NCBI RefSeq assembly: GCF_003315205.1
Contig: NZ_QNRR01000020.1
Coordinates: 1-64,000, forward strand
Length of the DNA: 64,000 bases
Origin: Roseimicrobium gellanilyticum
Lineage (GTDB): Bacteria; Verrucomicrobiota; Verrucomicrobiia; Verrucomicrobiales; Verrucomicrobiaceae
Direction: 5' to 3'
Shown here: piece by piece, positions 16,032 through 45,654 of the stretch
Layout: every line of letters begins with the position of its first letter
Numbering within the stretch: the stretch's first letter is position 1
Program-made: the position numbers and the translations under genes
The notes under the pieces: model-generated
What the model was told of the DNA's origin: nothing
The model's input: the letters and a program-made list of their open reading frames with translations, nothing else
Databases searched by the model: none

Positions 16032-16037
16032 GGGTGG

Positions 16038-18670: not shown

Positions 18671-18685
18671 GGATACATCAATACA

Positions 18686-26127: not shown

Positions 26128-26185
26128 AATGCGTTGGGGTGAAACTTAGCAAGCCATCACTACCAGTGACCAGGAGTCGGTGCGT

Positions 26186-26722: not shown

Positions 26723-26742
26723 CTTCTAGCGAGAGCGCATGC

Positions 26743-27588
26743 TCACGAAGCTTGGCCATTCGCTGGCAGCTCGAAGTCGACTCCCAGACCTACTTGCTCC
26801 CAGTCACAGAGCTCCCTTTCGAGTTCTGAGTTCTTACGCCGCGCCTTTTGGTTCGCGTACCTGCCTAGGGTCAGGCGCAACGGCGGACTGGCCGAAGCAG
26901 CGACCTCAAGGATGGCTTTGGCAGCCAGGTCTGGATTTCCTGGTTGTCTGCGGTCGGTCGAACGGACCAATCGCGCAAACTTGCCTGAAGTACTGTCGTA
27001 AGCTGGGAGGTGATTCCCGGCCGCTTGCAAACCTCGACCAACGAAGTCAGTACGAAAGGGCCCGGGCCGCACGATTGTCACGCGTACATTGAACGGTGCC
27101 AATTCTAATCGTAAACTCTCGCTGAGAGCCTCGAGTGCGGCCTTCGCGGCCCCGTACGCGCCAAATCCCGGATAGTTCGAAATCGCCGCAGCAGCACTGA
27201 AGTTGAAGATGTGTCCGGACTTCTGCTCACGAAACATGGGCAAGCATGCCCGAATGAGATTGAGGGCTCCGAAAAAATTTACTTCGAAGTTGTCCCTGAT
27301 CTGGAATTCTTCGCACTCCTCCACCGCACCCAGAAGCCCCCTGCCGGCGTTGTTGACGAGTACGTCAAATCGACCTGCAAAACCGATAGCTTCCCTAACG
27401 CTCTCCGGGTCTGTAACGTCCAGTTCCAGAATGCGGCATCGCTCACAGGCTGACCAGGCGAATCCAGCGAGGTCGGACTTGTTCCTTGCTGTCGCAATGA
27501 CAGAATTGCCAGACTCAAGAGCCTTTTTGGCGAGAGCTTGGCCAAGGCCGCTGGAGCAGCCTGTAATGAACCAGGTTTTCAGAGACAT
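26743..27588 (-). CDS. Short-chain dehydrogenase/reductase (SDR)
   Basis: The 281-aa enzyme has the classical SDR nucleotide-binding motif TGCSSGLGQALA, the structural NNAGRG motif and the catalytic Tyr/Lys pair in YGAAKAALE, so NAD(P)(H)-dependent oxidoreduction of an alcohol or carbonyl is expected. The family member resembled is the oxidoreductase type often annotated with substrate unknown. It starts 21 bp downstream of the phytoene-desaturase-like gene and is followed by the SRPBCC gene, so it belongs to the carotenoid cluster transcript. Modification of a carotenoid end group is an inference from location only. Confidence 0.88.
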   Translation of the reverse strand: MSLKTWFITGCSSGLGQALAKKALESGNSVIATARNKSDLAGFAWSACERCRILELDVTDPESVREAIGFAGRFDVLVNNAGRGLLGAVEECEEFQIRDNFEVNFFGALNLIRACLPMFREQKSGHIFNFSAAAAISNYPGFGAYGAAKAALEALSESLRLELAPFNVRVTIVRPGPFRTDFVGRGLQAAGNHLPAYDSTSGKFARLVRSTDRRQPGNPDLAAKAILEVAASASPPLRLTLGRYANQKARRKNSELERELCDWEQVGLGVDFELPANGQAS

Positions 27589-27609
27589 TGTACTGACTGG
27601 TGTTAGGAT

Positions 27610-29094: not shown

Positions 29095-29165
29095 GCGATT
29101 CTTCCTACGCCACCGGCGGCGAACTGGATACCATCCCGCTAAAGATATTTTTCTGCCCTGGGGTT

Positions 29166-30572
29166 TCAGCGTCCCAACAGAAAGCGTCCGGCCTTTTTCA
29201 ACATCGTCAGCGAGGTCTTCATAGGGGGGTAGCGGAACGCTGAGTCGAAGCGGAATCCGCGGTTCATGACCGCCCGCTGGTGTGAGAAACACTCAAACCC
29301 GTACTTTCCATGGTACATCCCCATCCCGCTTTGTCCGAGCCCTCCGAAGGGAAGACATTTTCCCATCATGTGCAGCAGTGTGTCGTTAACGCAAACACCC
29401 CCCGAGCGGACCTCTCGGAGAACGGCGTCCTGAGTTTCCTTGTCCTCCGTGAACAGGTACATAGCCAAGGGAGTGGGGCGGCTGCGTAGGTACGATATCG
29501 CTTCCGCAATCTCGTCGAAAGTCGCCACGGGAAGGATGGGTCCGAAGATCTCCTCCTGCAAAACAGGATCATTTTCGGAAACATTCGTAAGGATCGTAGG
29601 GGAAATGTACAAGTCACTTGCTTCATGGTGCCCGCCGTAAAAGGTCTCGCCTGAAGCCAGATAGCCAACCAGCCGCTCATGATGCCGCCGGTTGATGATC
29701 CTCGAGTAGTCAGCGCTGCGGCGAGGATCTTCGCCGTAGAATTCCTTGATGCTTCTACTCAGGCTCTCCAGGAATTGTTCTTTCACCCGGCGGTCCACCA
29801 GGACGAAATCCGGGGCGGTACAGGTTTGGCCGGCGTTAAGGAATTTCCCCCAGACTATGCGCCGCGCCGCAATTTCGATGGGAACGTCCGCACAAACAAT
29901 GCAAGGCGACTTGCCGCCCAGCTCAAGAGTTACTGGTATCAATCGATCAGCTGCACAGGCCATCACTTCGCGCCCGCGCTCGGTGCTTCCCGTAAAGAAG
30001 ATCTTTTGGAATGGTTGCTTCAGGCATGCGGCGGCCACAACGCCATCACCTTCTACGACGGCCACATACTCCGGAGGGTAGATGGACGAGACGAGCCTCG
30101 CGATGGCCTCAGAAGTGGCGGGTGACAGCTCTGAAGGCTTCAGCACTGCGCAGTTTCCGGCGGCAATCGCGCTGACCAACGGGGTGAGTATAAGCTGGAG
30201 TGGATAGTTCCATGGCCCCATGATGAGGACCACGCCGTATGGCTCCTGCTGGCAGCTCGACCGTGCAGGCCACGCCAGCACAGGAGTGGGCACCCGTCTG
30301 GGCTTTGCCCAGCGGCCTATATGCTTCATGGCATAGGCTGCCTCGCTTTCCACGAATGCCACCTCGGCGAGGTAGGTCTGCTCCGGAGAACGGCCCAGGT
30401 CCCGATATACGGCTTTTAGAAGGTCGTCCCCGTGCGCGGAGAGTCCCTCAAGCAGTATCGAGAGCATGTTCTGCCGGAAACCGGTCGGACGAGTAACGCC
30501 GGACCGGAAAAAATTTTTCTGGCTCTGAACGATTTTTGTCAGGTCCACGATCAACCGTTGGTGGGATTCCAA
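29166..30572 (-). CDS. Aldehyde dehydrogenase, probable carotenoid aldehyde oxidase
   Basis: The 468-aa protein belongs to the short ALDH class (ALDH3-like): MGPWNYPLQLILTPLVSAIA, FFTGSTERG, catalytic Glu in LELGGKSPCIV and catalytic Cys in NAGQTCTAPD. A C-terminal hydrophobic/basic tail (MLKKAGRFLLGR) could associate with membrane. The frame opens at a TTG; a GTG at 30548 is an alternative. It sits directly upstream of crtN and matches the role of AldH/CrtNc, which oxidises the terminal aldehyde of C30 carotenoids to the acid before glycosylation. Its start is only about 18 bp from the divergent TPR gene start. Confidence 0.85.
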   Translation of the reverse strand: MESHQRLIVDLTKIVQSQKNFFRSGVTRPTGFRQNMLSILLEGLSAHGDDLLKAVYRDLGRSPEQTYLAEVAFVESEAAYAMKHIGRWAKPRRVPTPVLAWPARSSCQQEPYGVVLIMGPWNYPLQLILTPLVSAIAAGNCAVLKPSELSPATSEAIARLVSSIYPPEYVAVVEGDGVVAAACLKQPFQKIFFTGSTERGREVMACAADRLIPVTLELGGKSPCIVCADVPIEIAARRIVWGKFLNAGQTCTAPDFVLVDRRVKEQFLESLSRSIKEFYGEDPRRSADYSRIINRRHHERLVGYLASGETFYGGHHEASDLYISPTILTNVSENDPVLQEEIFGPILPVATFDEIAEAISYLRSRPTPLAMYLFTEDKETQDAVLREVRSGGVCVNDTLLHMMGKCLPFGGLGQSGMGMYHGKYGFECFSHQRAVMNRGFRFDSAFRYPPMKTSLTMLKKAGRFLLGR

Positions 30573-30590
30573 CGTATACGAAAGCGAGTC

Positions 30591-31373
30591 ATGAAAAGGC
30601 GCATCGTTCTACCTCTTTCCGGACTGGCGTTGTTTCTGGTGTTTTCGGGCACTGCGCTGGTGGCATCTGCATCTGAAGTTAACAAGGGAGTGCGAGAGTT
30701 CCGAGAGGCTTACGCGTCATGGAACGCTGATGCTTTCGCACAGGCCGCGGGTACAGTCTCTAAAGCCGCAGCGAGTGACGGTGCTTCCGCCGAAGTGTAC
30801 CACTGGCTTGGGGTGATTCAGTTCCACCAGATGCTTCAAAAGCGGAGTGAGTCGGGAAGCAGTGCGTCGACACCTGCGGTGGTAAAATTCCGCGAAGCGG
30901 CTATCGAGACGCTTACCCGTGCACTTCAAAAGGATGCGAAGGATGCTGAGGCACACGCCATGCTTGGAACGATGATGGGCATGAAGGTGGATGGCATGCT
31001 AAGCGGGCTCCGCTTTGGTCCCTCCATATCGCGGCATCAGGACCAAGCTCTGGCACACGGCACGGACAATCCTAGGGTGCAATACCTCCTCGGCGCCGCA
31101 AAGTATCATACAGCCAAGGACAAGGATGGCTTTGAGTCTGCCCTTAAGTCTTTGCAAACTGCGGAGCGTCTCTTTGAAACCGAGAACAAGGAGCCGGCAG
31201 GCGAAGAAAATGCTCGGTGGGGCTACGATGCATGCCTGGTATTTCTGGGCCGTACCGAGGAAGCGCTCGGGAACCGGGAGAAGGCCGCCGGCTACTTCCG
31301 CAAAGCACTTTCTGTCCGGCCTAACGACGATGGCGCCAAAGAAGGACTGAAACGGACTGCCAGTTCAACCTGA
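30591..31373 (+). CDS. Exported TPR protein in the carotenoid cluster
   Basis: This 260-aa protein begins with a clear signal peptide (residues 1-27, LSGLALFLVFSGTALVASAS) and then TPR-like helices: YHWLGVIQFHQMLQKR, ALQKDAKDAEAHAMLGTMMG, LEALGNREKAAGYFRKALSV. The ATG at 30591 is chosen because a longer frame from 30432 would run across the divergent gene's start. It is the first gene of the plus-strand arm, 10 bp before the crtP-like gene. TPR proteins usually scaffold protein contacts; a role in organising envelope pigment assembly is an inference from context. Confidence 0.82.
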   Translation: MKRRIVLPLSGLALFLVFSGTALVASASEVNKGVREFREAYASWNADAFAQAAGTVSKAAASDGASAEVYHWLGVIQFHQMLQKRSESGSSASTPAVVKFREAAIETLTRALQKDAKDAEAHAMLGTMMGMKVDGMLSGLRFGPSISRHQDQALAHGTDNPRVQYLLGAAKYHTAKDKDGFESALKSLQTAERLFETENKEPAGEENARWGYDACLVFLGRTEEALGNREKAAGYFRKALSVRPNDDGAKEGLKRTASST

Positions 31374-31383
31374 CCCAGGACCT

Positions 31384-32868
31384 ATGCCCCAGAGGAAAGC
31401 AATTGTGATCGGTGCTGGGCTCGGCGGCATTTCTGCGGCCGTATCCCTCAAGCAGGAAGGATATGAAGTAGCCATCTTCGAGAAGAACAGCCAGATCGGC
31501 GGCAAGCTCAACGTGCACAGGGAGCGCGGCTACTCTTTCGATCTTGGGCCTTCCATCCTGACGCTTCCACACATCTTTCGGAGGCTCTTCGAGAGATCGG
31601 GAAAGAATCTGGAGGATTATATACCTATCCGGACAGTGAGGCCTCACTGGAGGAACTTTTTTGAGGACGGCACAGTCGTGGATTTGTATCCGGAGGCGGA
31701 CAAAATGGCAGCGGAGGCGCTAAAGGTCGGCGAACCGTACGAGAACGTGGAGCGATTTTTGAAGTATTCAGCGGACCTCTATGACCTTACGAACGATGGT
31801 TACTTCGAGCAGGGTCTCGACAATTGGCGCGAATTCGGAAAACACTATGGGCTGTGGAAATTTCCTCAGTTCGATCTGTTTCGCAACATGCACAGCGGAG
31901 TTGCGTCGCACTTCGACACCCGCTATTTCAGGGACGTTTTTGATTTTTTCATCAAGTATGTTGGCTCGTCGGCGTTCCGCGCTCCTGCCTTCATGAACTC
32001 GATGGCGACGATCCAGTTTCGCTACGACCTCTGGTATGTAGATGGAGGGCTCTACAACATCGCTGTTGGCCTGGGCCGCCTCATGGAAGAACTGGGAGTA
32101 AAGGTGCATCTGGAGTCCGCTGTAGAGGAAGTGCGCCGTGAGGGAGGCAGGGTTACCGGTATCGTGGTCGGTGGAGAATTCCATGCGGCCGATGTGGTGA
32201 TTTCGAACATGGAAGTCATTCCGGCGTACAAGGAACTTCTCGGTGAAGAAGGGGCCTTCACGCGCAAACTTGAAAAACGCCTGGAGCCAGCTTGTTCAGG
32301 ACTCATCATAGATCTGGGGCTGGACCGTCAATACCCTCAACTGGCTCACCACAATTTCTTCTTCAGTGATGATCAGCGCGAACATTTTCGCACGGTGTTT
32401 GAGAAACGCGAATTACCCCACGACCCCACCCTCTATGTGGTTGCAGCGTCCCGAACGGATGCAACGGTGGCCCCACAAGGATGCGACGCTCTAAAGATCT
32501 TGCCGCACATCCCCTACATCGACGACGAACACCCGCTCAGCCGAGCCGACTACGAAGCCCTCAAGGATCGGGTGCTGGAAAAGCTGGAGCGCATGGGACT
32601 TGAGAATTTGAGGCAACATGTCGTGGTCGAACATGTTTGGACACCGCTCGACATTCGCGAACAGTACAACTCGAATAAAGGTTCCATTTACGGGGTGGTG
32701 AGCGACCGCTGGAAGAATTTGGCATTCAAGGCACCAAAACAGAGCACCAAATATCCCAATCTTTTCTTTGTGGGAGGTTCGGTTAATCCCGGGGGAGGGA
32801 TGCCGATGGTAGTGCTGTGCGGACAGAATGTGGCCAAGAAGGTGGTCGCCTGGCATGCGCAATGTTGA
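31384..32868 (+). CDS. crtP: C30 carotenoid oxygenase (CrtP-like, desaturase paralogue)
   Basis: The 494-aa protein has the N-terminal FAD motif AIVIGAGLGGISAAVSL and the C-terminal block YNSNKGSIYGVVSDRWKN, followed by FFVGGSVNPGGGMPMV. To my knowledge this block is typical of diaponeurosporene/diapolycopene oxygenases (CrtP/CrtNb) and not of desaturases. Such enzymes oxidise the terminal methyl group to an aldehyde. An AGGA ribosome binding site precedes the ATG by 6 bp. The stop overlaps the start of the glycosyltransferase gene. It pairs with the aldehyde dehydrogenase, which would finish the oxidation to the carboxylic acid. Confidence 0.87.
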   Translation: MPQRKAIVIGAGLGGISAAVSLKQEGYEVAIFEKNSQIGGKLNVHRERGYSFDLGPSILTLPHIFRRLFERSGKNLEDYIPIRTVRPHWRNFFEDGTVVDLYPEADKMAAEALKVGEPYENVERFLKYSADLYDLTNDGYFEQGLDNWREFGKHYGLWKFPQFDLFRNMHSGVASHFDTRYFRDVFDFFIKYVGSSAFRAPAFMNSMATIQFRYDLWYVDGGLYNIAVGLGRLMEELGVKVHLESAVEEVRREGGRVTGIVVGGEFHAADVVISNMEVIPAYKELLGEEGAFTRKLEKRLEPACSGLIIDLGLDRQYPQLAHHNFFFSDDQREHFRTVFEKRELPHDPTLYVVAASRTDATVAPQGCDALKILPHIPYIDDEHPLSRADYEALKDRVLEKLERMGLENLRQHVVVEHVWTPLDIREQYNSNKGSIYGVVSDRWKNLAFKAPKQSTKYPNLFFVGGSVNPGGGMPMVVLCGQNVAKKVVAWHAQC

Positions 32869-33908
32869 TACTGCTCGCCATTACTCTGGTGTTGTGGTCA
32901 GCAGGATTTGCTCTCCTGGTAAAGTTGAAGCCTGCCCATCGTCGGAATGGCACTCCCGCTGGAGGCAAAGAACTTAGTGTCAGCATCATTATTCCTGCTC
33001 GGAATGAAGAAGAGAATTTGCCGCGTCTGCTGGCCTCGCTGCAGCACCAGTCACACGCATTGCACGAGATCATCGTGGTAGATGACGAGTCAAGCGACCG
33101 AACCGCAGAAATTGCTGCAGAGTTGGGAGCAAGAGTAGTTAGCTCAGCGCCACTGCCCGAAGGATGGCGAGGCAAACCTTGGGCTTGCCATCAGGGCGCA
33201 GGTGCCTCTAGCGGAAGCCATCTACTCTTCGTTGACGCCGACACCTGGGTTGAAGAGAATGGGCTACAGAGTCTGCTCGATGCCTACCAGGGAGGTGCAT
33301 TGTCGGTGGGACCTTGGCACGCCGTAAGGGAACCTTATGAGGAACTCTCTTTGTTCTTCAATCTTAATATGGTCTTCGGCACAGTACCTCAGGGCTTGTT
33401 CGGACAGGTGCTCCTGTTAGACCGAAAAAGTTACGTGCGTGCAGGAGGCCATGAGATTGTTAAAGGCTTCGTGCTCGAAAACGTCATGCTCGCCCACCAC
33501 CTTCGGCGAGCGGGGGTGGCGGTGCGCAGCATACTGGGAAAGCGTCAGTTTTCTTTTCGAATGTACCCCCGTGGTTTTTCAGAGCTGGTGCTCGGTTGGG
33601 TCAAAGGGTTTGCCTCTGGGGCCAAAAGCACGCCCCGCGGCACACTTGCGATTAGCATCGCTTGGATGACCAGCTTGGCGTTCGTCCCGCTAGGCTGGAT
33701 AATAACGGGAGAGCATGTTTGGGGGGCCACCTATCTTCTGTGCGCGGTGCAGGTCGGCTGGATGGGCCAGACCGTTGGCGGTTTTCGACCACTGGCCTCG
33801 GTCTTTTATCCCGTCCAGCTTCTGTTCTTCTTTGCTGTGTTTGGAATGTCACTGACAACGTTGGGGAGGACTGTCGGTTGGAAGGGGCGCCACTTCAATG
33901 CACGTTGA
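32862..33908 (+). CDS. crtQ: Family-2 glycosyltransferase, CrtQ-like
   Basis: The 348-aa membrane protein has an N-terminal hydrophobic segment (about 1-22), a GT-A domain (SVSIIIPARNEEENLPRLLA, IIVVDDESSDRT, metal-binding D-A-D in LFVDADTWVEENG) and three to four C-terminal hydrophobic segments. The ATG at 32862 overlaps the last codons of crtP; a frame opening at 32817 is rejected. CrtQ esterifies glucose to the carboxyl group of diaponeurosporenoic acid in staphyloxanthin synthesis. Gene order crtP-crtQ-crtO supports that assignment. The sugar used here is unknown. Confidence 0.85.
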   Translation: MLILLAITLVLWSAGFALLVKLKPAHRRNGTPAGGKELSVSIIIPARNEEENLPRLLASLQHQSHALHEIIVVDDESSDRTAEIAAELGARVVSSAPLPEGWRGKPWACHQGAGASSGSHLLFVDADTWVEENGLQSLLDAYQGGALSVGPWHAVREPYEELSLFFNLNMVFGTVPQGLFGQVLLLDRKSYVRAGGHEIVKGFVLENVMLAHHLRRAGVAVRSILGKRQFSFRMYPRGFSELVLGWVKGFASGAKSTPRGTLAISIAWMTSLAFVPLGWIITGEHVWGATYLLCAVQVGWMGQTVGGFRPLASVFYPVQLLFFFAVFGMSLTTLGRTVGWKGRHFNAR

Positions 33909-34389
33909 ACTTTCAATCTTCTGGACCATCTTTTGCAACGTTACAGGATGGGCTGCAATCCAGATCGGATTGGCCTGGATATTCACACGACTCCCTGCGC
34001 GGTGGTTCGCGCCGCCCGGAATTCTTGGGTGGGAACACAATGGGGACGTTTACCAGCGTGCGTTCCGAATCAAAAAGTGGAAAAAGCTTCTTCCAGACGG
34101 GGCTTCGTGGTTCGAAGGCGGTTTCGCAAAAAGAAGGCTGTCCGGCTCGGAACGGGCCTACCTACAACGGTTTTTGCAAGAGACCTGGCGGGGGGAAATG
34201 TGTCACTGGACCGTTCTTGCATGGACGCCATTGTTCTTTACGTGGAATCCACTTTGGGGAGACTGCGTTGTCGTCGCCTATGCCATCGTCTCAAATATTC
34301 CTTGTATTCTTGTTCAACGTTACAATCGTGCGCGCCTTGCGAGGCTCATAAGTTTACGTGAGCGCGCTCATGCGACAGTACCGCGGTAG
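33898..34389 (+). CDS. crtO: CrtO-like carotenoid glycoside acyltransferase
   Basis: The 163-aa membrane protein has two to three hydrophobic segments and the central conserved block I-K-K-W-K-x-x-L-P-D-G-A-S, then KRRLSG, YLQRFLQETWRGEMCHW and SNIPCILVQRYNRARLARL. These match my recollection of the glycosyl-4,4'-diaponeurosporenoate acyltransferase family (CrtO of staphyloxanthin synthesis), which is of similar length. It overlaps crtQ by 11 bp and is the last gene of the plus arm. It would add a fatty acyl chain to the sugar, anchoring the pigment in the membrane. Confidence 0.83.
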   Translation: MHVELSIFWTIFCNVTGWAAIQIGLAWIFTRLPARWFAPPGILGWEHNGDVYQRAFRIKKWKKLLPDGASWFEGGFAKRRLSGSERAYLQRFLQETWRGEMCHWTVLAWTPLFFTWNPLWGDCVVVAYAIVSNIPCILVQRYNRARLARLISLRERAHATVPR

Positions 34390-37063: not shown

Positions 37064-37321
37064 TCACTTGGCATCGGCCTCGGCAAAGCGCTTCATGAGC
37101 AAGGCGGTTTCCTTGGCAGGGTCTGCCTTGAGCGCCCTGAACAACTCATAGGCCTCCACGAGGTCCACACGCCGCTCGCCCAGCTCAATCCGGGCGACCA
37201 TGCCGTGCTCCCGTCCCAACGCAGTCGCCAAATCACGCTGCGTCATCCCGGCCCTCTCCCGCAAGGCGCGGACATGGTCGCAGAATATCTTGGACAGCGC
37301 ACTGTGGACAGCCTTTTGCAC
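37064..37321 (-). CDS. XRE-family helix-turn-helix regulator
   Basis: The 85-aa protein is essentially one HTH_3 domain: VRALRERAGMTQRDLATALG and an ARIELGERRVDLVEAYELF segment. It opens at a GTG. It is divergent from a gene for a secreted protein, with 86 bp between them containing a repeated 10-mer that could be its operator. Small solitary XRE proteins often repress themselves and a neighbour. It may also mark the edge of the accessory region that continues to the tRNA at 45565. Confidence 0.8.
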   Translation of the reverse strand: MQKAVHSALSKIFCDHVRALRERAGMTQRDLATALGREHGMVARIELGERRVDLVEAYELFRALKADPAKETALLMKRFAEADAK

Positions 37322-37331
37322 GCTGCGATTT

Positions 37332-37368
37332 TGAGAGCAAAAGCACTTGCTTCCAAAATGAGAGCAAA
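37332..37368. promoter_or_regulatory. Direct repeat, possible XRE operator
   Basis: The 10-mer TGAGAGCAAA occurs twice, at 37332-37341 and 37359-37368, 27 bp start to start, inside the 86-bp divergent region between the XRE regulator and the secreted protein gene. Placement and spacing suggest a regulator binding site; no footprint data exist. Confidence 0.35.
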
Positions 37369-37407
37369 TAGATTTACGCTAACCGGTCACCAACACCGGT
37401 CATTCCT

Positions 37408-38262
37408 ATGAAGTCGAAAACCTGTCATTCGGCCCTCGTGTTCTTAAGTGCTCTGGCGCTCGCATTTGCTCCAGTTCATGCCGAGGACTCCGCGCTCCTC
37501 ACCGGGACTTGTCGCAACGTCACCCATGGGCTGGATGGTCTACTGAAACTCTACGTGACCGAGAAGGCGGGTGGAGAAATCGAAGGCTACATGTCCATCA
37601 GCGGCTGGCTCATCGGCAGTGACCCGCTCAAGGGCACCCGGACTGGGAACATCTACAAGTTTACCACGTCCGATCCCCTGTGGGGACTCTCCATTGCCTG
37701 GGAAGGTGTACGTCGGGAGCACCGGCTGTCCGGCGAGTACTACATTGGAGCCAACGCCAAAACAGGAACGGACAAGCAGGTCGGCGAGTGGGAAGTACAG
37801 ATGGAAGACAGCCAGAAGGACGGGGCCATCACGTCCGAGGAATCCTTTCGCAAGCTGTTCAAGCTCCGCCTCGAAGCCGACCTCAACTCCCCCATCAAAC
37901 TCCCGGATGGAATTACAGTCACCGGAGCCCAGGGCCTCTTCCAGTCCATTCACCCCGTGGGCACCGGTGTCAGCGTAAACGTCACCGACGTTTCCATCGT
38001 TTGGAAAGAGGGTGCCTCCAAGACCTCCGCCGAAGGCATCCACCGCTACACCGTGGACTACACGCTGTACTGGCATGGGCTGCTCAAGCCCACCGGACAC
38101 ACCAAGCTTCGCTTGAAGTACAACGCAGCCCTCAACGCCGTGACGGCTCACGACATGCTGGAAACCACCGGCACCACCAACCAGGACGTGAGTGAGATCG
38201 CCTTCGGCATCGGGGTGATTCTTGGAAAGGCCGCCATGGATTCGCTGCTCGAATCGAACTAA
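37408..38262 (+). CDS. Secreted protein of unknown function
   Basis: The 284-aa protein has a standard signal peptide (residues 1-25, ending APVHAED). The mature part is rich in beta-prone segments (GGEIEGYMSISGWLIGSD, YKFTTSDPLWGLSIAW, HRYTVDYTLYWHGLLKPTGH), which suggests a beta-barrel or lipocalin-like domain, but I do not recognise a family. It is divergent from the XRE regulator and followed after 9 bp by a small membrane protein gene. Confidence 0.7.
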   Translation: MKSKTCHSALVFLSALALAFAPVHAEDSALLTGTCRNVTHGLDGLLKLYVTEKAGGEIEGYMSISGWLIGSDPLKGTRTGNIYKFTTSDPLWGLSIAWEGVRREHRLSGEYYIGANAKTGTDKQVGEWEVQMEDSQKDGAITSEESFRKLFKLRLEADLNSPIKLPDGITVTGAQGLFQSIHPVGTGVSVNVTDVSIVWKEGASKTSAEGIHRYTVDYTLYWHGLLKPTGHTKLRLKYNAALNAVTAHDMLETTGTTNQDVSEIAFGIGVILGKAAMDSLLESN

Positions 38263-38271
38263 CCCACTGCC

Positions 38272-38523
38272 ATGTCGGATTCGATGGATGCTCTTCTGGC
38301 TACCCTGGCCGTGGCTTCATTGGCTGGCGTTGCGATCTGGAATACCCGGAGCCGCAGGCCAGCCTGGCTGACCAAAGTCTACCTGGCCGTACTGCTGGCT
38401 TTCGGGGTACTCGGGTACAACGCCAACCGTAGTGACAGGCAAAAAGAGCGGGAGAGAGTCGAGCGCTTACAGGAGCTCAGGGAGGGCCTGAAGTCTCTGT
38501 CTGAGCAGAGGCGTCTGCGGTGA
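38272..38523 (+). CDS. Small membrane protein with coiled-coil tail
   Basis: The 83-aa product has two hydrophobic segments (about residues 5-22 and 33-48) followed by a charged helical tail (DRQKERERVERLQELREGLK) likely to form a coiled coil. It starts 9 bp after the stop of the secreted-protein gene and is probably translated from the same mRNA. Its 3' end overlaps the convergent gene at 38477 by 47 bp. No family is recognised. Confidence 0.6.
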   Translation: MSDSMDALLATLAVASLAGVAIWNTRSRRPAWLTKVYLAVLLAFGVLGYNANRSDRQKERERVERLQELREGLKSLSEQRRLR

Positions 38524-38890
38524 GCATACACGACTCCAGGCGCTCCGGGATGGGACCGGTGGCATGGTGGCGTGTCAACGTGCAACCCTGGCGGCGAAAG
38601 GCCACTTCGTCCTCGACACAGTTTTCACTGAACTTAATCCAGGCGACGAACTCAGTGCAGGCATAGGTCGTCAGGAGACATTTCCCGTGCTGGTCGCGGA
38701 GCGCCCAAACAACATCGTCGTCGTTGTTGCTCATATCCTCCTTCAACAGAGCTTGTAGCGCGCTCTCGCTCAATCCCGAGCATGTTTCGATGAACTCTCT
38801 CGCAATCATATAAAAATGGAGTGCGGTGCGTGACTGGTACACATCCGATGAGTTGCCGCAAAAATCAATGTCCGAACTCTCCGTCGCCAC
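38477..38890 (-). CDS. Hypothetical protein, 137 aa
   Basis: The frame opens at a GTG and encodes an acidic, Cys-containing soluble protein (SRTALHFYMIAREFIETC, DDDVVWALRDQHGKCLLTTY). No known domain is recognised. It follows the last large gene of the island operon by 117 bp in the same orientation and could be its distal member. The last 15 codons overlap the convergent small membrane protein gene, which lowers confidence in one of the two. Confidence 0.45.
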   Translation of the reverse strand: MATESSDIDFCGNSSDVYQSRTALHFYMIAREFIETCSGLSESALQALLKEDMSNNDDDVVWALRDQHGKCLLTTYACTEFVAWIKFSENCVEDEVAFRRQGCTLTRHHATGPIPERLESCMLTADASAQTETSGPP

Positions 38891-39007
38891 AGGCTCTCAA
38901 GTCGATGTGTGGACGGCTGCAAGCGATGTCAAGACTGTCTATAAGCTTTCCCACGCCTGGGTCCGAATCCATCAAGGGTACCTGCTGACGCTGACAATGT
39001 CAGCGTT

Positions 39008-40576
39008 TCACGGAATCTCATCTGTCGGAAACGGGCCAGGCGCTCCCCAGCCATCAGGCATGTCTGTAGGAAGTGGGCGAAGCTTCACCCTTCCATCGGG
39101 CATTTCGATAACGAATCCATTCCTCATGAGACCAGAAATGGCTCTGTCCCGAGTACGGGAAGTCATCTCGTGGAAGGTACGGCTTAGTTCCCGCCTGGTC
39201 ATGGGTCCTTTGTCCCCCAAGCGATCCATAATAGCCATTTCGAGCTGAAAATTGTCAATGCTGTCAATGTCGTAGGTCTCGTCGAAGATGGTTCGACCGT
39301 CGTCATCTGGACCAAGCCGTAACCACTTGAGACAATCATAATGTTCGCGTGCCAACCACCGCCCCAGAATGCATGCGGCATCCATGGCCTCCGAAGAGAC
39401 GATAGCATCAACTCCCGGCACAGAGTTCTCATTCTTGCCTGTGATCGAAAGCAACATCGCCAAGCGAATCACCAGCTCATGAAACCAGGCAAATTGCTGC
39501 GGCCTCAGTGGCGCCAGTTTGGAGGCGTTAGTTGCCAGATCGACGCAAAATCCCGCGGCCAAGGCGTCTGCCTCGGGGGAAAGGCTCCAGACCACGGCGT
39601 CGTGTCCAGATTCCGTACTGTCGACCAGACGACGGCACAGCTTCGCCCACTCCCCGTACACTTCCGCATCGAGCGGAACCAGATACGCAGGAGACGCTCC
39701 CTCCGTAACCACCAGAACCGGTGGGCTCGCAGCTTTCCATGGACTCTGAGGGCCCCAGATGACCCTACGCGCTGCGGTGATCTCCGACCTCCACAACAGG
39801 TGGATCACTCCTCGGCAGGGAATCGGTCCCTTCGCCGGAAGGTCCATGTCCTTCCAACTCATCTGAAGCAGGCGGCTCAGTTCCACAACCTGCTTTCGGC
39901 TGGCGCTATGAAGCTCCTGCATCGGATCAATGCCACCATTGAGAGACACTACTGTCCGCCCCCAACTGTGCTTCAAAGCTTCGAGCAGTTTGTCGGGCAA
40001 CGGGGACCGCTCCATGGCACACGGGGCCAGAGTTAATTGGGTGCGCACTAGTTGCTTGTTCTTGTCGAGGGCAGAGCCGAATAGGAACGAAGACTGTGAA
40101 TCCATGCTCTTGAGCTCATTCATAAAATGAGCGGCACCAAAAGCCTGATGCATCCTCAGCCTGCCACGGAGGTGTCCCAGCCAGGGCTCGGCAAAAAACT
40201 CGATCCAATTATGGCTTGTGGGAGCTTCCCCGCAGACAATCAAGTTGAACGGACAGGATATCCCCAAGTGGGCTCTCCGTAACCGGTGCTTAGCGCCGGC
40301 GATCCCCGCCAGAACGTGCAGCAGGACGACCATGATGGATTCCGGACGCAACTTCCACCGACTCGCCGCATCCACTGTCAGAACCTTGAGAGGTTCCGGC
40401 ACGATGTTCAGGGCCTTGGCGAAGTTATCTGCGGGCGCATTGCGGAGCAGCCAGTGCTCGGCCTCCTGTTTCGTGGGGTCTGAATGCGAGGCCACTGGTT
40501 CCAGAGGGGGCAGCCCGCCGAAAGCCTCCAAACATTGGCCATTACCTTTCGAAAGTTCTTCTAAGAGGCTATCCAT
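39008..40576 (-). CDS. DUF3987-like island protein lacking a Walker A motif
   Basis: The 522-aa protein has a segment (about residues 75-135: VDAASRWKLRPESIMVVLLH, LRRAHLGISCPFNLIVCGEA) that lines up in order with the start of DUF3987/helicase-like primase-associated proteins, but with no G-x-G-K-S/T. The C-terminal half contains the usual hydrophobic helix FHELVIRLAMLLS and an ACILGRWLAREH segment, then a winged-helix-like end (GPMTRRELSRTFHEMTSRTR). It overlaps the upstream 508-aa gene by 8 bp. The family link is from pattern memory. An accessory, non-catalytic role in island replication is my inference. Confidence 0.72.
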   Translation of the reverse strand: MDSLLEELSKGNGQCLEAFGGLPPLEPVASHSDPTKQEAEHWLLRNAPADNFAKALNIVPEPLKVLTVDAASRWKLRPESIMVVLLHVLAGIAGAKHRLRRAHLGISCPFNLIVCGEAPTSHNWIEFFAEPWLGHLRGRLRMHQAFGAAHFMNELKSMDSQSSFLFGSALDKNKQLVRTQLTLAPCAMERSPLPDKLLEALKHSWGRTVVSLNGGIDPMQELHSASRKQVVELSRLLQMSWKDMDLPAKGPIPCRGVIHLLWRSEITAARRVIWGPQSPWKAASPPVLVVTEGASPAYLVPLDAEVYGEWAKLCRRLVDSTESGHDAVVWSLSPEADALAAGFCVDLATNASKLAPLRPQQFAWFHELVIRLAMLLSITGKNENSVPGVDAIVSSEAMDAACILGRWLAREHYDCLKWLRLGPDDDGRTIFDETYDIDSIDNFQLEMAIMDRLGDKGPMTRRELSRTFHEMTSRTRDRAISGLMRNGFVIEMPDGRVKLRPLPTDMPDGWGAPGPFPTDEIP

Positions 40577-42095
40577 TGATTGTACTGTTTAAGGGTTGGG
40601 TGAGACGATGGTTCGTGAGGTCGCCATCGTCCGGAATGTGATACTCTCGCTTTGTCTGGAGATAGACGACCTGCCCGGCGCTCATCAGTCGTTCGAGCCC
40701 CGCGTCAATGTCTGAGCGTCTGCTTTGGAAGATCGAGCGCTGAAGTGTCCGGGCGTTGCAGGGACCTTTTGCTTTGAGGATCGACTGGATCTGCCTGGCG
40801 AATCTGGCTGCGCGCTGAACCTGCACTTGAGCAAATGCTGCTTTGAGAAGCGCCACATGCCTCTCGACGGCGTATGCTGTAGTGGCCTGTACGGCCTTTG
40901 ACAGCCTTCCTTCGTCAATCCCAAGAACGGTGAAGGCCCACGATAGCTTTTGGACCAGAGCTGCAAACGGTCGCATGTAGCGCCGAAGTTCTGGAGGAGT
41001 TGCATCGAGCAGCCTCACCATCTCGGCATCAAGCTCTTCAAGCTGGTGCATGAGGTGCGGACTGTGTTGAACAATGGTTCCTTTTCGGGCAGCCCGATCG
41101 TTGACCAGTCGTTCAAGAATTCCTTTGTAGGTCCCCCACACTGCTTGGGTCCCTCCACTCTGCAGCGGACGCACTTTGCACTCGGACGGCGCCCACAAGA
41201 TTGCTTCTTCAAGAACAGGCTTCTCGGTGCCAGCTCCAGCTTCTCCAAGGATTTCCGCAACCCGCTCAGGAGAGAGACTTGAAAAGAGCGCGATTCTGCC
41301 GCGCACGAGCTTGCCGTTCCCTTGATCCTGATGCAACCGCGGCATGGGAACATCTTTTCCTCCCATCAGCTGAGAGAGATACCTGGCATGGGAACCCCAC
41401 TTCGCTCCATCAGCATCGTTCTGCTCGAAAAGGCGGCCTTCAGGGTCCAGAACAAACGCGTGCTGTTCGACAACATCGGCCATCATACCCGGCAGTTCGT
41501 TGAGAGAACCGGGGCGGAGCACAAACGATGGCAGATGGCGCACTCCGGGCACGCGTTCGCGCAACAGCATCTCGGTATGCTTTCCATCATGGGAAGGCAT
41601 CGGGTCGACCGGCGAGTCCCAGCCCATAGGCAGCGTATCGCCTGCATTCAGATCATTAACCGTCGCCTCTAACATCTGAACGAGACGCGTATGAATCTCC
41701 GTGGGTCGAACCGCCAGCGCTTCGCGCCACGTTTTCAGCGACTCCGGGCCAGACAGATACATGTCGCCCCACACACGGCTCGTCCTGTGCGCAGCATGAC
41801 GCATGAAATCCTGAAGCGAGTGCAGAGGCCGGAAGAGATGTTCCGCAAGGCGCTGCGACCGGTGGGACAGCTCCCCCACACTGATGAGATTTACTCCTTG
41901 CGAAATCCCTGCCCCACCCTTCGTCACCAAGCCCGAGAGAGGTCCTGTAACGTTGGCAAGCACTCCAGCTACACAAAGTGCCACCTCCTCCACCGGCAGC
42001 CCCAGGGTGCAAGACATGCCACAGAGATGGTTACCGAAGGTTTCGATCCATGGTCTCAACTGGGTTTTGTTCGAACAATCAGGTGCTTGGCTCAT
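40569..42095 (-). CDS. Second DUF3987-like island protein lacking a Walker A motif
   Basis: This 508-aa protein (ATG at 42095; a TTG frame opens at 42134) begins with WIETFGNHLCGMSCTLGLPV, EEVALCVAGVLANVTGPLSG, which recalls the N-terminal part of DUF3987 proteins, and ISVGELSHRSQRLAEHLFRP occupies the place of the P-loop. The C-terminal region has a helical bundle (LRRYMRPFAALVQKLSWAF) and a winged-helix-like segment (KGPCNARTLQRSIFQSRRSD). It and the next gene share length and layout but little direct identity, so they look like an old duplication or a heteromeric pair. The gene begins 120 bp after the ATPase stop, beyond a hairpin. Confidence 0.7.
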   Translation of the reverse strand: MSQAPDCSNKTQLRPWIETFGNHLCGMSCTLGLPVEEVALCVAGVLANVTGPLSGLVTKGGAGISQGVNLISVGELSHRSQRLAEHLFRPLHSLQDFMRHAAHRTSRVWGDMYLSGPESLKTWREALAVRPTEIHTRLVQMLEATVNDLNAGDTLPMGWDSPVDPMPSHDGKHTEMLLRERVPGVRHLPSFVLRPGSLNELPGMMADVVEQHAFVLDPEGRLFEQNDADGAKWGSHARYLSQLMGGKDVPMPRLHQDQGNGKLVRGRIALFSSLSPERVAEILGEAGAGTEKPVLEEAILWAPSECKVRPLQSGGTQAVWGTYKGILERLVNDRAARKGTIVQHSPHLMHQLEELDAEMVRLLDATPPELRRYMRPFAALVQKLSWAFTVLGIDEGRLSKAVQATTAYAVERHVALLKAAFAQVQVQRAARFARQIQSILKAKGPCNARTLQRSIFQSRRSDIDAGLERLMSAGQVVYLQTKREYHIPDDGDLTNHRLTQPLNSTING

Positions 42096-42174
42096 TGTAC
42101 GGAAACAGCTGAAGGTGAAAGTCTGTCTTAGCAAAGAGGTATACTAGTGCCCAGACCCAAGAGGCGTTGGTCAG

Positions 42175-42209
42175 TTCAGTTCGCCGCCTTTTAAGGCGGG
42201 CGAACTGAA
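42175..42209 (-). terminator. Strong hairpin inside the island operon
   Basis: The arms TTCAGTTCGCCGCC (42175-42188) and GGCGGGCGAACTGAA (42195-42209) pair over 14 bp with one bulge and a 6-nt loop, in the gap between the ATPase gene (ends 42218) and the next island gene. It is not followed by a long T-run, so partial attenuation or RNA processing is as likely as termination. Confidence 0.5.
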
Positions 42210-42217
42210 ACTGAGCC

Positions 42218-43282
42218 TTAAACACTTGGCTGGGTGATGTCTGGTCGTGTACGCTTAATTGTCTTTCTGTTGTGAGCTCCAGTTTCGACGACCAACTTCC
42301 CGGAGTTGATCGCCGCTTCACGGAGAGGCTTCTCAAATTTTTTCGCCCATCCCTTACTAGCAAGAGCATCAACCAATTCGGTGGCTGACAACCCGCCAGG
42401 AGGGAACAATGCAAGATACTCTTCCATCGTTGGTTTCGTGAGTTGACTACCCCGTCTGCTACGAAGGCGTTTGGGATCGAGATCTTCAGCCAACTTCATG
42501 ATTGGAGGCTCCCATTTGACTACAAAAGGATCGGCGGGGGCGAAGTTGCGCAGGGTGCTTTCCAGCACGAAGGATCCCGGAGCCTCATGTGGAGTGAGGG
42601 TCAGAATCGTGTCGGGATCCCTGGCAAATACACCACTTCCAGAAACGCGGTCCAATACATCACGCGCAGCCTGGTTCCCCTTGGAAAAGTGAGCGCCGAA
42701 GACTACAGCAGCCCCAGTCTCAACGCAGATTTTTTCAAACTGATTCAGCAACTCAGAAATCTCTCCGGCGGCGTTCTCATCACGGCCACCCAGCAGCTTG
42801 TACGTAGGGTCTATGACCATCAGATCAAAGCCGCGCTCCTTCGTAAGGGCCGAAATCTTCGGAAGGATCTTTTCGCCTCCACAGGCATGCCCCCGCAGAT
42901 GCAAAAAGTGGAGTTCCTCAGGCTCAGGAATCTCTGACGCTTTCAGAATCTCCGCCACACGCTGATTAACAAAAACCTCGGCCAATTCAAAATTGACAAA
43001 TAAGACCCTCCCTGGCTCCACACATCTGCCGAGCCAAGGGCGCCCGGACGCCACACATGCAGCAAGGTGCAACAAGCACCATGTCTTGTAAGATTTTGAC
43101 CCTCCCACGAAGGACGCTTTGGTCCCTTTGTGGATGAGGCCTTCCACGATCACTTTCGGCGGCTCTAGTTGCTTTCGAAGTGATTCTTGGTAGCTGACAA
43201 TTGCTGGCAAGTCGGCAAGCACCGTCCCACCGGTCTCCTCGAAGGATCCCATTTTCCAATTCGTCGCCAGTTGTACGTTCAC
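42218..43282 (-). CDS. RepA-like AAA ATPase (hexameric replicative helicase family)
   Basis: The 354-aa protein opens at a GTG that overlaps the previous stop by four bases. It has a Walker A motif (FVGGSKSYKTW), a FVNFELAE segment, a Walker B (LMVIDPTYKLL) and VVFGAHFSKGN, matching the AAA_25/RepA replicative helicase family. The C-terminal 80 residues (MEEYLALFPPGGLSATELVD) look like a winged helix. Next to a primase-like protein it likely forms the replication module of the island: DNA unwinding plus priming. It is not a phage terminase or Cas protein. Confidence 0.85.
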   Translation of the reverse strand: MNVQLATNWKMGSFEETGGTVLADLPAIVSYQESLRKQLEPPKVIVEGLIHKGTKASFVGGSKSYKTWCLLHLAACVASGRPWLGRCVEPGRVLFVNFELAEVFVNQRVAEILKASEIPEPEELHFLHLRGHACGGEKILPKISALTKERGFDLMVIDPTYKLLGGRDENAAGEISELLNQFEKICVETGAAVVFGAHFSKGNQAARDVLDRVSGSGVFARDPDTILTLTPHEAPGSFVLESTLRNFAPADPFVVKWEPPIMKLAEDLDPKRLRSRRGSQLTKPTMEEYLALFPPGGLSATELVDALASKGWAKKFEKPLREAAINSGKLVVETGAHNRKTIKRTRPDITQPSV

Positions 43283-44256
43283 GCTAAGACCTCCCGATTG
43301 AAGTAAAGCACTTGCTGACGAGCGCCGTTATCCCGCGTCCCGTCCGGCATCCGAACCATCTGGCAAGGGACCCATGTTGCAGGATCCGCACCCAAACTAA
43401 CCGCAAACTTCATGAATGGCAGAAGCTGCGCATCGGAGAAACCCTTGCACGGAAACCAGCCATGGAGCGATTTCCCACCACTCGAGACGACCAGCGCCAG
43501 AGGAGCATTTTCGGCAAGCTTCAAGAGTATCGATGCGCAGAGATCTGCTATCGACAATCCCTTTTCGCGGAGAGATTCCAGAAGCGGGCGATCCGCTGAG
43601 TCTTTTCCATTTTGATCCCCCCAGCAAAAATCACATTCGATCACCAGGAACTCACGAGGTCCAATATTATCCAAGCTTCTTGCAGAACTCCGGCCCAATT
43701 TGGTCAGCCCGGTTGTGGCCTTCATTGGTGACGGCACAATGAACTGAAGGTCGTGCAAATCTTGCCCCCAGTCCTGGAGGGACTTAGTCTGAAAGTGCCT
43801 GATGGTATGACCACAGCACATCAACGAGTTGCCCCGGTAAAGCGCTCCCAAGACAGTATCCGTAACTCGAACTTCATCGGCCACCTTCTCGGGAGAGATT
43901 TGGCGAAGGCCATCAAGATTCGACCCCGCCACAGCGATCTTGTGGATGGCTGAATAGTTTCTAACCGGCCATTTCGGTTTCCCGGTCGAACGCGCACTTT
44001 TGTTCCGGGGGAGTGAATTAGTTGATACCCCGCAAGCCCAAGCGGAGTTGATGGCGTCGAAAATCTCCCGATCGGAGACGTCGCGACCACAACTCTGCGA
44101 GCTTCCTGCGATCATACCGTGGGCTTCCACTGGCGTGAAGCCGGCCTCTCGCAGGGAGCAGGCCGCACCATAGATCCACCGATGCACTCCAGCCCCGGCA
44201 AGCGGGCAACGAGACAAGTAGTCCATAGCCCGCTGATGTTTGACGGACGAACTCAT
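43279..44256 (-). CDS. Primase-polymerase-like (AEP) protein with N-terminal PriCT-like domain
   Basis: This 325-aa protein starts with a segment (CPLAGAGVHRWIYGAACSLR, DREIFDAINSAWACG) that resembles the PriCT-type helical domain of mobile-element primases. The C-terminal half has candidate AEP motifs: acidic pair in FLVIECDFCWGD, SSGGKSLHGWF (Ser/His motif) and CQMVRMPDGTRDN. Exact catalytic residues need alignment. It overlaps the HTH gene upstream and the ATPase gene downstream by four bases each, so it is translationally coupled to both. A role in making primers for island replication is expected. Confidence 0.75.
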   Translation of the reverse strand: MSSSVKHQRAMDYLSRCPLAGAGVHRWIYGAACSLREAGFTPVEAHGMIAGSSQSCGRDVSDREIFDAINSAWACGVSTNSLPRNKSARSTGKPKWPVRNYSAIHKIAVAGSNLDGLRQISPEKVADEVRVTDTVLGALYRGNSLMCCGHTIRHFQTKSLQDWGQDLHDLQFIVPSPMKATTGLTKLGRSSARSLDNIGPREFLVIECDFCWGDQNGKDSADRPLLESLREKGLSIADLCASILLKLAENAPLALVVSSGGKSLHGWFPCKGFSDAQLLPFMKFAVSLGADPATWVPCQMVRMPDGTRDNGARQQVLYFNREVLA

Positions 44257-44504
44257 CCGTTCCCCCTCTCTCCTTCGGTGCCTTCGCTGCCGTCCTTGTC
44301 CGGCAGGTTGGAAGCTGCCTCAGCTTCCAAAAACTGCCTAAGCTCCGATGCGTAAATAAACCTCTGCCCCCCAATTTTGAGAACGCGAAGTCCACTGGAC
44401 TCCCACCGCTGAAAGGTCGAGCGCGATGCAATGCCTAGCTGGCGTAGCTTCTTCTCAGGAAGGGGCAGCTCAGTGTTGTTGGCGGGTCTTGGTTCGTCTT
44501 GCAT
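44253..44504 (-). CDS. AlpA/excisionase-like helix-turn-helix protein
   Basis: The 83-aa protein has a MerR-superfamily winged helix of the helix_turn_helix_17 type (LRQLGIASRSTFQRWESSGL, KIGGQRFIYASELRQFLE), typical of excisionase/AlpA regulators in integrative elements. The ATG at 44504 is preferred over a TTG at 44513. It is the first gene of the coupled replication operon and could act as activator or excision factor. Confidence 0.8.
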   Translation of the reverse strand: MQDEPRPANNTELPLPEKKLRQLGIASRSTFQRWESSGLRVLKIGGQRFIYASELRQFLEAEAASNLPDKDGSEGTEGERGNG

Positions 44505-44580
44505 CAGGTGCAAGCACGCTGACCGAGACCGACCAATCAGTAAAACGTGAGGATGTACCCCCTACATCTTGGCGGAGCTG

Positions 44581-45465
44581 CTAACCAAATGGCAGTTGGG
44601 AGAACACTCTGCAAAACGTTCGGCGCTTCTCAAAGCCAAGCTTGTCGTTTCCATCTAAAATCTCGAGTTCCTCCAATCTCTGCCAATTCAACTTGGCGCG
44701 AGACTTGGGCAATTTTTTGGGTAGGGCTATTCCCAAACTCGCTAACTTTGATGCGTAATTGCGGTCTACGCGTGCGCCAGCATACCAGCGGCTAAAAATG
44801 CCATCAAATTTCTTAGTGATGGCAGCCTTGTTCGAGTGAGGATCTATCTCCAGTACCATTAATCGATTGCCTCTGCTATGTGCATCTCTCAATAGCTGCG
44901 CGACCTCAAGCTCTTCAGGGAATTCTTTCCCCTGCAGCTCATGGTCGATTAACTGAAACTGCAGTTTTTCAGTCAGCAGATCGGTCATGTAGGCGCCCAC
45001 GGGAAAGCCCAAGGCATGACTCGATCTGACCATATTGTCCGCGATTCTATTTCTGACTTTGTCGTCAAGTGCAGTCCAAGCCAATTTACCATATCCAAGG
45101 ATGGCATTAACAAGGAACGACACCTCTCCAAAACGCTTGTGAAGACCGGGAAGGCTCCGTCCAGATTCCCGCAACCCGCTGAGACGTTCCTTCTGTCTCG
45201 CCCTGCGGGTCTCCTCGCTATCGGGTCCAGAGGGTGCGCGAAATTCCAAGCGAAGCGTGTCAAACAGCGGATGGCGCCGCGCCGTCTCCCAAATGACTGG
45301 TTCAGGTTTGAAGAGTTTGTGGGAAGACCTCTTCTCTCCGGTGTAGAGCAACGAGGCAGAGCGCGAATTCGGGTTGCTCTTTGCTTCTTTCCACCATGGA
45401 TTCCGCGAGAACGCCTCGACACCATGGTACCATCTCAGCTGCTTTTCATCCCAAGGTAATGACAC
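44581..45465 (-). CDS. Unknown island protein adjacent to the tRNA attachment site
   Basis: The real start is taken as the GTG at 45465, preceded by AGGAG with 8 bp spacing; a longer frame continues back through the tRNA gene, where its first residues are just translated tRNA sequence. The 294-aa product is basic and mostly helical (KLAWTALDDKVRNRIADNMV, LEVAQLLRDAHSRGNRLMVL, WQRLEELEILDGNDKLGFEK). I recognise no family, and the R-H-R-Y set of a tyrosine recombinase and the Ser motif of a serine recombinase are not apparent. Its place beside the attachment site is where an integrase is normally encoded. Confidence 0.7.
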   Translation of the reverse strand: MSLPWDEKQLRWYHGVEAFSRNPWWKEAKSNPNSRSASLLYTGEKRSSHKLFKPEPVIWETARRHPLFDTLRLEFRAPSGPDSEETRRARQKERLSGLRESGRSLPGLHKRFGEVSFLVNAILGYGKLAWTALDDKVRNRIADNMVRSSHALGFPVGAYMTDLLTEKLQFQLIDHELQGKEFPEELEVAQLLRDAHSRGNRLMVLEIDPHSNKAAITKKFDGIFSRWYAGARVDRNYASKLASLGIALPKKLPKSRAKLNWQRLEELEILDGNDKLGFEKRRTFCRVFSQLPFG

Positions 45466-45483
45466 AGCCCAGGCTCCTGTAAA

Positions 45484-45504
45484 AGGGGTTAAACAGGGGT
45501 TAAA
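45484..45504. repeat. Pair of 10-bp direct repeats next to the tRNA
   Basis: AGGGGTTAAA occurs at 45484-45493 and 45495-45504, an 11-bp period, between the tRNA 3' end and the start of the 294-aa gene. Such tandem repeats beside an attachment site can be arm-type binding sites or iterons for an island protein. Confidence 0.55.
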
Positions 45505-45564
45505 GTAACCAAAAGGCGATAGCGCGATAAACCCCGAGTCATAGGACTTAACTCGTTCATTCAG

Positions 45565-45654
45565 TGGCGGACAGGGAGGGATTCGAACCCTCGGTACTAT
45601 TTCTAGCACACACGATTTCCAATCGTGCCCGTTCGACCACTCTGGCACCTGTCC
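45565..45654 (-). tRNA. tRNA-Ser(GGA)
   Basis: Read on the minus strand, a 7-bp acceptor stem (GGACAGG/CCTGTCC), a D arm, the anticodon stem CACGA/TCGTG with anticodon GGA (45618-45620), the long variable arm of class II tRNAs, a T arm GAGGG-TTCGAAT-CCCTC and an encoded CCA end are all visible. The anticodon reads UCC/UCU serine codons. Its 3' end lies at the island side and is the likely attachment site. Confidence 0.96.

Follow-up and report, generated by a model that had tools for sequence, protein, structure and literature searches.

The 64,000-nucleotide stretch of Roseimicrobium gellanilyticum DNA analysed here (contig NZ_QNRR01000020.1, positions 1 to 64,000 of the forward strand; hereafter the window) contains a block of genes set directly behind a tRNA-Ser gene, which raises the question of which recombinase, if any, brought this block there. 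A first-pass annotation had described positions 38477–45564 as a tRNA-linked island with no recognisable recombinase, in which the gene in the integrase position encodes a 294-amino acid (aa) protein of no known family, and had offered three explanations: that the recombinase is novel, that it lies elsewhere, or that the element is decayed. The analysis reported here favours the second. With a probability of about 0.87, the block would be the attL end of an island integrated in a tRNA gene (tDNA), at least about 87 kb in size, which has two ends and carries a tyrosine integrase at the far one. In the following, G000 denotes this genome, C20 the contig of the window, and C12, C11 and C17 further contigs of G000, while G001 is a same-genus genome in a single contig which served as comparison reference.

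The tRNA-Ser(GGA) gene is intact and located at 45565–45654 on the minus strand (Rfam, 52.1 bits), being read as the regenerated integration target on the attL side. Genes A to G are all co-stranded with it and begin right behind its 3' end, led by the 294-aa open reading frame (ORF) A (44581–45465, minus strand), so that these elements of the initial description are upheld. We have scanned the proteins of the block against Pfam, PHROGs and PADLOC (all seven) and NCBIfam (A to F), and no recombinase was recognised among them, in agreement with the first reading; no family was obtained for A, C, E and G. A itself has no match in PHROGs, NCBIfam or PADLOC, and in Pfam only reaches E = 0.12, which is at chance level (0.11–0.12 among the first seven members of its family). 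The G+C content amounts to 0.52–0.54 at 42–45 kb versus 0.58–0.64 at 48–64 kb. An island of 7 kb with a local far end was rejected, since a search of the window with exact words of at least 12 bases from the tRNA region found no second att-like copy, just one 13-bp match to the tRNA-Ser 3' part being present elsewhere. In fact, nothing bounds the island at 38477, and the extent originally proposed has to be abandoned, as the far att copy lies on another contig.

This copy was retrieved by a DNA search of the own genome with the tRNA region. It consists of 79 bp identical to the 3' part of tRNA-Ser(GGA), at C12:194683–194761, where ARAGORN calls no tRNA gene. The corresponding att core in the window spans 45549–45627 (minus strand); it starts at tRNA position 28, within the anticodon stem, and extends 16 bp beyond the tRNA. 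As the far copy is absent from the window and found on C12, the block is best regarded as one end of a larger island. Starting 123 bp from the C12 fragment and directed into the island is an ORF for a 445-aa tyrosine recombinase (PF00589, 3.6e-7, above the cut-off), and fragment and ORF together indicate a recombinase of known kind at the opposite island end. Thus, an intact tDNA, a displaced 3' fragment and a tyrosine integrase ORF between the two are all found, although the same orientation and order of tDNA and fragment hinge on the inferred join of C12 to C20 discussed below. The view of an island devoid of recombinase, for which the first-pass annotation had itself named a canonical integrase as the refuting find, gives way when the full proposed extent of the island is considered.

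The two ends also have a tandem repeat with an 11-bp period in common. The window version, which separates the tRNA from A, reads TTTAACCCCTGTTTAACCC, and the C12 version, lying between fragment and integrase, reads TTTAACCCCAGTTTAACCC. The tandem TTTAACCC-N3-TTTAACCC is located at 45486–45504 (minus strand) in the window and at positions 10166–10184 of L024, a 19.9-kb stretch of C12 carrying the integrase end. Allowing up to 2 mismatches, this pattern occurs once in the window (0.00 expected from 100 shuffles) and once in L024 (0.01 expected from 200 shuffles), and its exact form is present in 6 of the 116 loci examined, every one a copy of the window or the C12 place. We infer that these repeats are the P' and P arm sites of the integrase, the window site being the putative P' arm, and that recombination between the two att sites is the work of the 445-aa integrase. 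No relaxase or type IV secretion genes, as would be expected of an integrative conjugative element, were seen in a Pfam scan of 20 island proteins (10 from the window and 10 from C12).

As the tRNA-Ser and the fragment sit on separate contigs, the join between them is derived from partial collinearity with G001 and from a gene read as split, the C12 end and the C20 start looking by eye like parts of one ceramidase-like gene. Three stretches, C12:228953–235266, C20:7666–13074 and C20:18299–34410, are collinear and on the same strand with G001 3774895–3780681, 3784677–3790070 and 3835000–3851103, respectively. On this basis the end of C12 would join the start of C20, and the island would comprise C12:194683–236288, a gap and C20:1–45654, adding up to at least 87.2 kb, of which the window would hold positions 1–45548 before the island runs on into C12 up to the att copy. 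A comparable island of about 88.8 kb is contained in G001 on one contig, with a tRNA-Leu(CAA) near 3771700 and a fragment at 3860487, just inside of which lies an integrase belonging to the same family. There, the word GGTTTGCATTT has a single copy close to the tRNA and two copies at a distance of 11 bp close to the integrase, with no further same-strand occurrence in the two stretches.

We have also investigated whether this layout recurs. The integrase family was searched in 12 chosen genomes at E 1e-8, using a profile built from two integrases, and 10 loci were found in 6 of them, 9 having a tRNA-like 3' fragment upstream. The one without fragment is a truncated copy on C12 (C12:158051; L044:7959–8486), about 36 kb further left, which corresponds to the C-terminal part, is 84% identical in DNA and appears by eye to be cut by a transposase-like ORF; it is probably the remnant of an older tandem island. 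The decay considered in the first-pass annotation fits this neighbour, not the two ends described here. For three fragments, a search identified the corresponding tRNA within the genome itself: G000 (Ser(GGA)), G048 (Ser(CGA), 61 bp) and G001 (Leu(CAA)). That of G442 was matched by two pieces, as described below, and the remaining five integrase-end fragments were read by eye (Thr-, Phe- and Tyr-like, one unassigned, and that of G517, which is cut by the contig end). Four other genomes that carry A have the same integrase family (G048, G442, G517 and G480), and in the first three of these the layout is seen likewise split over contigs, with arm repeats beside the integrase that resemble those beside A. 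In G048 an A homolog lies behind tRNA-Ser(CGA), and a different contig holds the 61-bp exact fragment, next to an integrase with 37% identity (7e-101), the arms matching; in G442 the integrase-end fragment has both 25-bp pieces which flank the Ns in the tRNA beside A. The longest word shared by P and P' within an element amounts to 11 bases in G000, 17 in G048, 14 in G442 and 10 in G517, as compared to 6–10 between elements (10 for G442 P against G048 P') and 10–14 for the close pair G442/G517. Out of 1000 mononucleotide shuffles of P' only, 1, 0, 0 and 9, respectively, reached the within-element length, making the arm case of G517 weaker.

Proteins related to A are rare. The order was searched with a 3-sequence profile, scoring the best 6 candidates per genome, and at least 8 of 386 genomes, G000 included, were found to have the family, misses being possible. 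Across the phylum, a single-sequence search and a 7-sequence profile with the best 5 candidates per genome, in which misses are equally possible, detected it in at least 1 of 387 genomes, only G000. A single-sequence search of 57 genomes gave relatives in one other, G048, with two copies, and none were found in plasmids or, by conserved-word scans, in viral contigs. Ten loci were counted (G000, G048 twice, G442, G450, G480, G517, G556 and G717 twice, two rows for G556 being one gene), and in 9 of these A immediately follows, in the same orientation, a tRNA or a tRNA 3' part: Ser(GGA) in one, Ser(CGA) in six (three by eye), Phe in one and Tyr in one. ARAGORN called the tRNA in 6 loci, while those of G442 (a tRNA with Ns), G480 and G517 were recognised by eye, only the tRNA 3' part being left, at the contig start, in the last two. 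The exception is G717:C307, which has no tRNA in roughly 1.4 kb upstream of A; moreover, the A of G480 carries an internal stop. B follows A in 6 of the 10 loci (G000, both of G048, G442, G450 and G517), with 39–54% identity to the window B over the alignment. The genes beyond B vary, being a P4-family primase in G450 (TIGR01613, 6.5e-36), 344–354-aa proteins in G048, G442 and G517 (the G048 one with no Pfam or NCBIfam match), and C and D in G000. A direct repeat of 13 bp, CAGCCCCTGAAAT, is present in three copies just past the A stop and upstream of B in G450 (L071:15900–15945), possibly a regulator site. As judged from these comparisons, A founds a new, poorly understood family which marks tRNA islands, so far in one verrucomicrobial order.

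A number of observations weigh against the two-ended island. Its ends are on different contigs, and the end of C17 is 98% like the start of C20, so that the repeat at the break is ambiguous; neither an excised circle nor an empty site was seen. Outside the fragment, C12:184841–194592 matches G001 3797590–3809149, which falls between two of the collinear blocks, so that the order is not simply collinear. This outer DNA matches the inside of the G001 tRNA-Leu island (89%), so that older islands may be arrayed in tandem on the C12 side. Among the relatives, G450, G556 and G717 carry A and gave no family integrase at E 1e-8, G001 has the integrase family and no A, and for the second A locus of G048 (C100) no partner fragment is present in that genome. 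The two integrase ends of G480 bear other tRNA-like fragments than the Ser beside its A (longest shared words of 9 and 11 bases), and the G517 fragment, as said, is incomplete. Also, G001 had to be rejected as a clean empty site, since behind its tRNA-Ser there are an apparent integrase C-terminal remnant and transposases. In another reading, the C12 fragment and its integrase would be the end of an independent, related island, the window island having lost its own far end: tandem islands seem to exist on C12, given the truncated integrase copy, a repeat coincides with the contig break, and the order of C12 departs in part from that of G001. However, the same arm repeat is found at the C12 integrase and at the tRNA-Ser, and at these two places only among the loci examined, and the order of the three blocks spanning the break is preserved in G001, so that we consider this explanation improbable.

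The role of A has to be weighed along the same lines. It could be a site-specific recombinase of a new kind, or a subunit obligatory for integration, in which case the C12 integrase would belong to a different, superimposed island. This suggestion draws on the position of A directly behind the tRNA in 9 of 10 loci over four different targets (Ser(GGA), Ser(CGA), Phe and Tyr), and on the 3 of 8 A-bearing genomes in which no family integrase was obtained. These genomes are drafts, however, with 73–95% completeness, the A end is linked by its arm repeats to the end with a tyrosine integrase in four genomes, including three other A-bearing ones, and the integrase family is present without A in G001. 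Further, A matches no family of recombinases or known defence proteins, and in a 7-member alignment the only invariant residues past position 66 are L, W, L and F, no tyrosine or serine being invariant anywhere, although the aligned members are 17–24% identical to A and misalignment is possible. A novel recombinase is therefore highly improbable. The structural checks proposed at the outset were of limited help, as the AlphaFold models are poor (mean predicted local distance difference test 46.6 and 47.9, predicted template modelling score 0.29 and 0.30) and comparison with profiles from the PDB gives only a weak match to the SelB winged helix (E 0.034). Another candidate function is that of a plasmid-type replication initiator which would bind close to attP and trigger the copying of the excised circle, given that A precedes helicase and candidate primase genes and adjoins tandem repeats of 11-bp period, possible iterons. 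Yet the repeats are found at both att arms, including beside the integrase, as integrase arm sites would be, and A and B are retained in front of varying genes (G450; G048, G442 and G517), which makes an initiator unlikely. We conclude that A is not the recombinase; as the favoured, though tentative, alternative we propose that it regulates or assists excision next to B.

A possible precedent for such a role is FseA, a DUF6499-DUF2285 protein which activates rdfS, and hence excision, in ICEMlSymR7A (PMC10359603). The motif of the A family, WExxRR.P (WExxRRHP in A), resembles AWEFLRRN of DUF6499 as given in that source, this being the only shared motif, and A lies upstream of a helix-turn-helix (HTH) gene. 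In alphaproteobacterial plasmid loci, a gene annotated as HTH protein is found within 150 bp after the DUF2285 gene in 4 of 8 cases (one of the 8 being unannotated), which we liken to B following A, although these are known as HTH genes by annotation only and A, unlike the FseA described there, occurs in another phylum and at attL. Alignment of A with six plasmid DUF6499 domains by hhalign gives E 0.001 over 19 columns with a probability of 21%, versus 0.78 for the reversed control and 0.47 for an integrase control; with a single FseA-like protein the value is 0.023. The target of this comparison was picked after A had been seen, so that the value of 0.001, obtained for one chosen target, is weaker than it appears. 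DUF2285 was not detected in the C-terminal part of A by hhalign (E 0.7 against 0.44 for the reversed control). The Pfam profile of DUF6499, PF20109, stays below the cut-off, with E 0.027 in 1 of 10 A members; in G048 the best of 3 hits falls on the A motif at E 0.36, while 6 of 14 control genomes also match at E 1, and G000 and G001 have none. The resemblance to FseA is hence a lead, not membership. It is conceivable, if somewhat speculative, that A is an FseA-like control protein placed at attL beside the P' arm, which switches on the excisionase B and arose in, or was transferred to, bacteria outside the proteobacteria, A, B and the far-end integrase forming one portable module combined with different tRNA targets and replication modules.

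The proposed working of the island would then be as follows. The integrase would recombine the att sites at the tRNA end and at the fragment end, yielding an excised circle with attP between the divergent genes for A and the integrase. The part of directionality factor would fall to B, and replication of the circle to the C-D-E-F genes. All of these genes in the block are on the minus strand. B (86 aa, 44253–44513) shows a sub-threshold excisionase/MerR-like HTH (HTH_17 0.024; TIGR01764 0.04), with nothing useful against the PDB, and is a candidate recombination directionality factor. D (354 aa, 42218–43282) is a RepA-type AAA_25 ATPase/helicase, with matches to PF13481 (2e-32), phrog_2597 (1.7e-51) and RepA in the PDB (3.7e-4), and no close relative of it was found in viral contigs. 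C (325 aa, 43279–44256) is possibly a primase of the archaeo-eukaryotic (AEP) type, the sole ground for this label being SGGKSLHGW at residue 259, a primase-like motif; neither the libraries nor the PDB gave a match. E (521 aa, 40569–42134, or starting from an ATG at 42095) has no library family; in G442, a protein of 523 aa encoded downstream of A and B is weakly similar to it (4e-5 over 93 aa). F (522 aa, 39008–40576) has a sub-threshold match to DUF3987 (1.1e-5), and its relatives are encoded downstream of A in both G450 and G048. G is a 137-aa ORF (38477–38890) that may not be a gene. The earlier picture of five replication-type genes coupled by overlaps holds in part: B/C and C/D overlap by 4 bp and E/F by 8 bp, but A/B, D/E and F/G are separated by gaps of 67 bp, 122 bp (83 with the TTG start of E) and 117 bp, respectively, and only D can firmly be taken as being of replication type, by its ATPase class.

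Next to the block, at window positions 37064–38262, a gene pair encodes an HTH_31 protein of 85 aa together with a 284-aa product that has no family, and a copy 75% identical in DNA is found at C11:126163–127366, about 6 kb from an integrase of the same family (C11:119128) beside a fragment that looks tRNA-Thr-like by eye. Further into the island, the cargo at 14770–34337 (plus strand) is 96–98% identical to G001 3831471–3851030, inside the tRNA-Leu island, while long pieces to the right of the window tRNA are 77–92% identical to G001; the higher identity of this 19.6-kb stretch suggests recent exchange between islands residing in different tRNA genes. The cargo block was thus probably exchanged recently between islands of the two genomes, the G000 island being probably composite. 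The ORFs of the cargo, named by eye, include phytoene-desaturase-like, aldehyde dehydrogenase, glycosyltransferase, sulfatase-like and cytochrome-like ones. Since the left half of the window maps to a place 0.8 Mb distant in G001, a simple inversion came into question as the sole cause of the synteny break at the tRNA; it was set aside because the mapped stretch proved to be inside the tRNA-Leu island. Both islands have a module in common, L036:8739–13883 on C12 and L098:4760–9691 in G001, with a PD-(D/E)XK nuclease and a WGR/ATP-dependent DNA ligase, Pfam support being obtained in G000 only, and with sliding-clamp-like ORFs by eye. At the other extreme, window positions 1–292 and the end of C17 are 98% identical and by eye correspond to a repeated ceramidase-like gene, probably the cause of the assembly break. 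Behind the tRNA-Ser of G001, the minus strand of L025:674–930 reads TALEMGNSIDMIRRHYFEAVTHAKGAEWFAI, which looks like the C-terminus of a tyrosine integrase of another type, followed by transposase-like ORFs. The tRNA-Ser(GGA) gene may be an integration hot spot of the genus.

The layout described belongs to a known class. Islander islands consist of an intact tDNA and a displaced 3' fragment in the same orientation, with a tyrosine integrase between them (PMC4383910), and, as described there, they likewise have a core starting from the anticodon stem and can form tandem arrays at one tRNA. In contrast to that description, the tRNA-proximal place is here occupied by the conserved non-integrase A, often with an excisionase-like gene, the integrase lies at the fragment end, and fragment and tRNA are on separate contigs, where the definition asks for two ends on one replicon at a distance of 2–200 kb. 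The GInts (PMC5385486), reported in one verrucomicrobial genome, are also islands with tyrosine recombinases in which several genes are needed for recombination, but they are described with three consecutive recombinase genes (ginABC) and flanking repeats of 10–11 nt, as opposed to one integrase and a 79-bp tRNA repeat. Tycheposons, as described second hand (PMC10872708), are large cargo islands starting from a tRNA with a tyrosine recombinase, as here; A and B do not appear in that indirect account, and the likeness noted is one of layout. Finally, primase-helicase modules with RepA-type and DUF3987 ATPases together with primases have been described in integrated elements, Verrucomicrobia being among the hosts (PMC5862659), whereas here C has no detectable primase family match and the genes are separate and unfused. 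Among the titles listed in searches of an open-access library, which does not cover subscription papers, none was found on this arrangement.

The novelty accordingly resides in the A family, in its occurrence behind tRNA genes within a single order and in the association of A with B, the tyrosine integrase and the type of tDNA island being known; the initial hunch of an unusual gene behind the tRNA was a good one. The puzzle of a tRNA island seemingly without integrase finds a well-supported answer in an integrase located at the far end, which a scan confined to the DNA behind the tRNA misses. The A family, B, the tandem arms of 11-bp period and an integrase with a tRNA fragment together provide a signature for large cargo islands in Verrucomicrobiota, and the nearly identical cargo in two tRNA genes of two genomes indicates that such islands have recently exchanged DNA.

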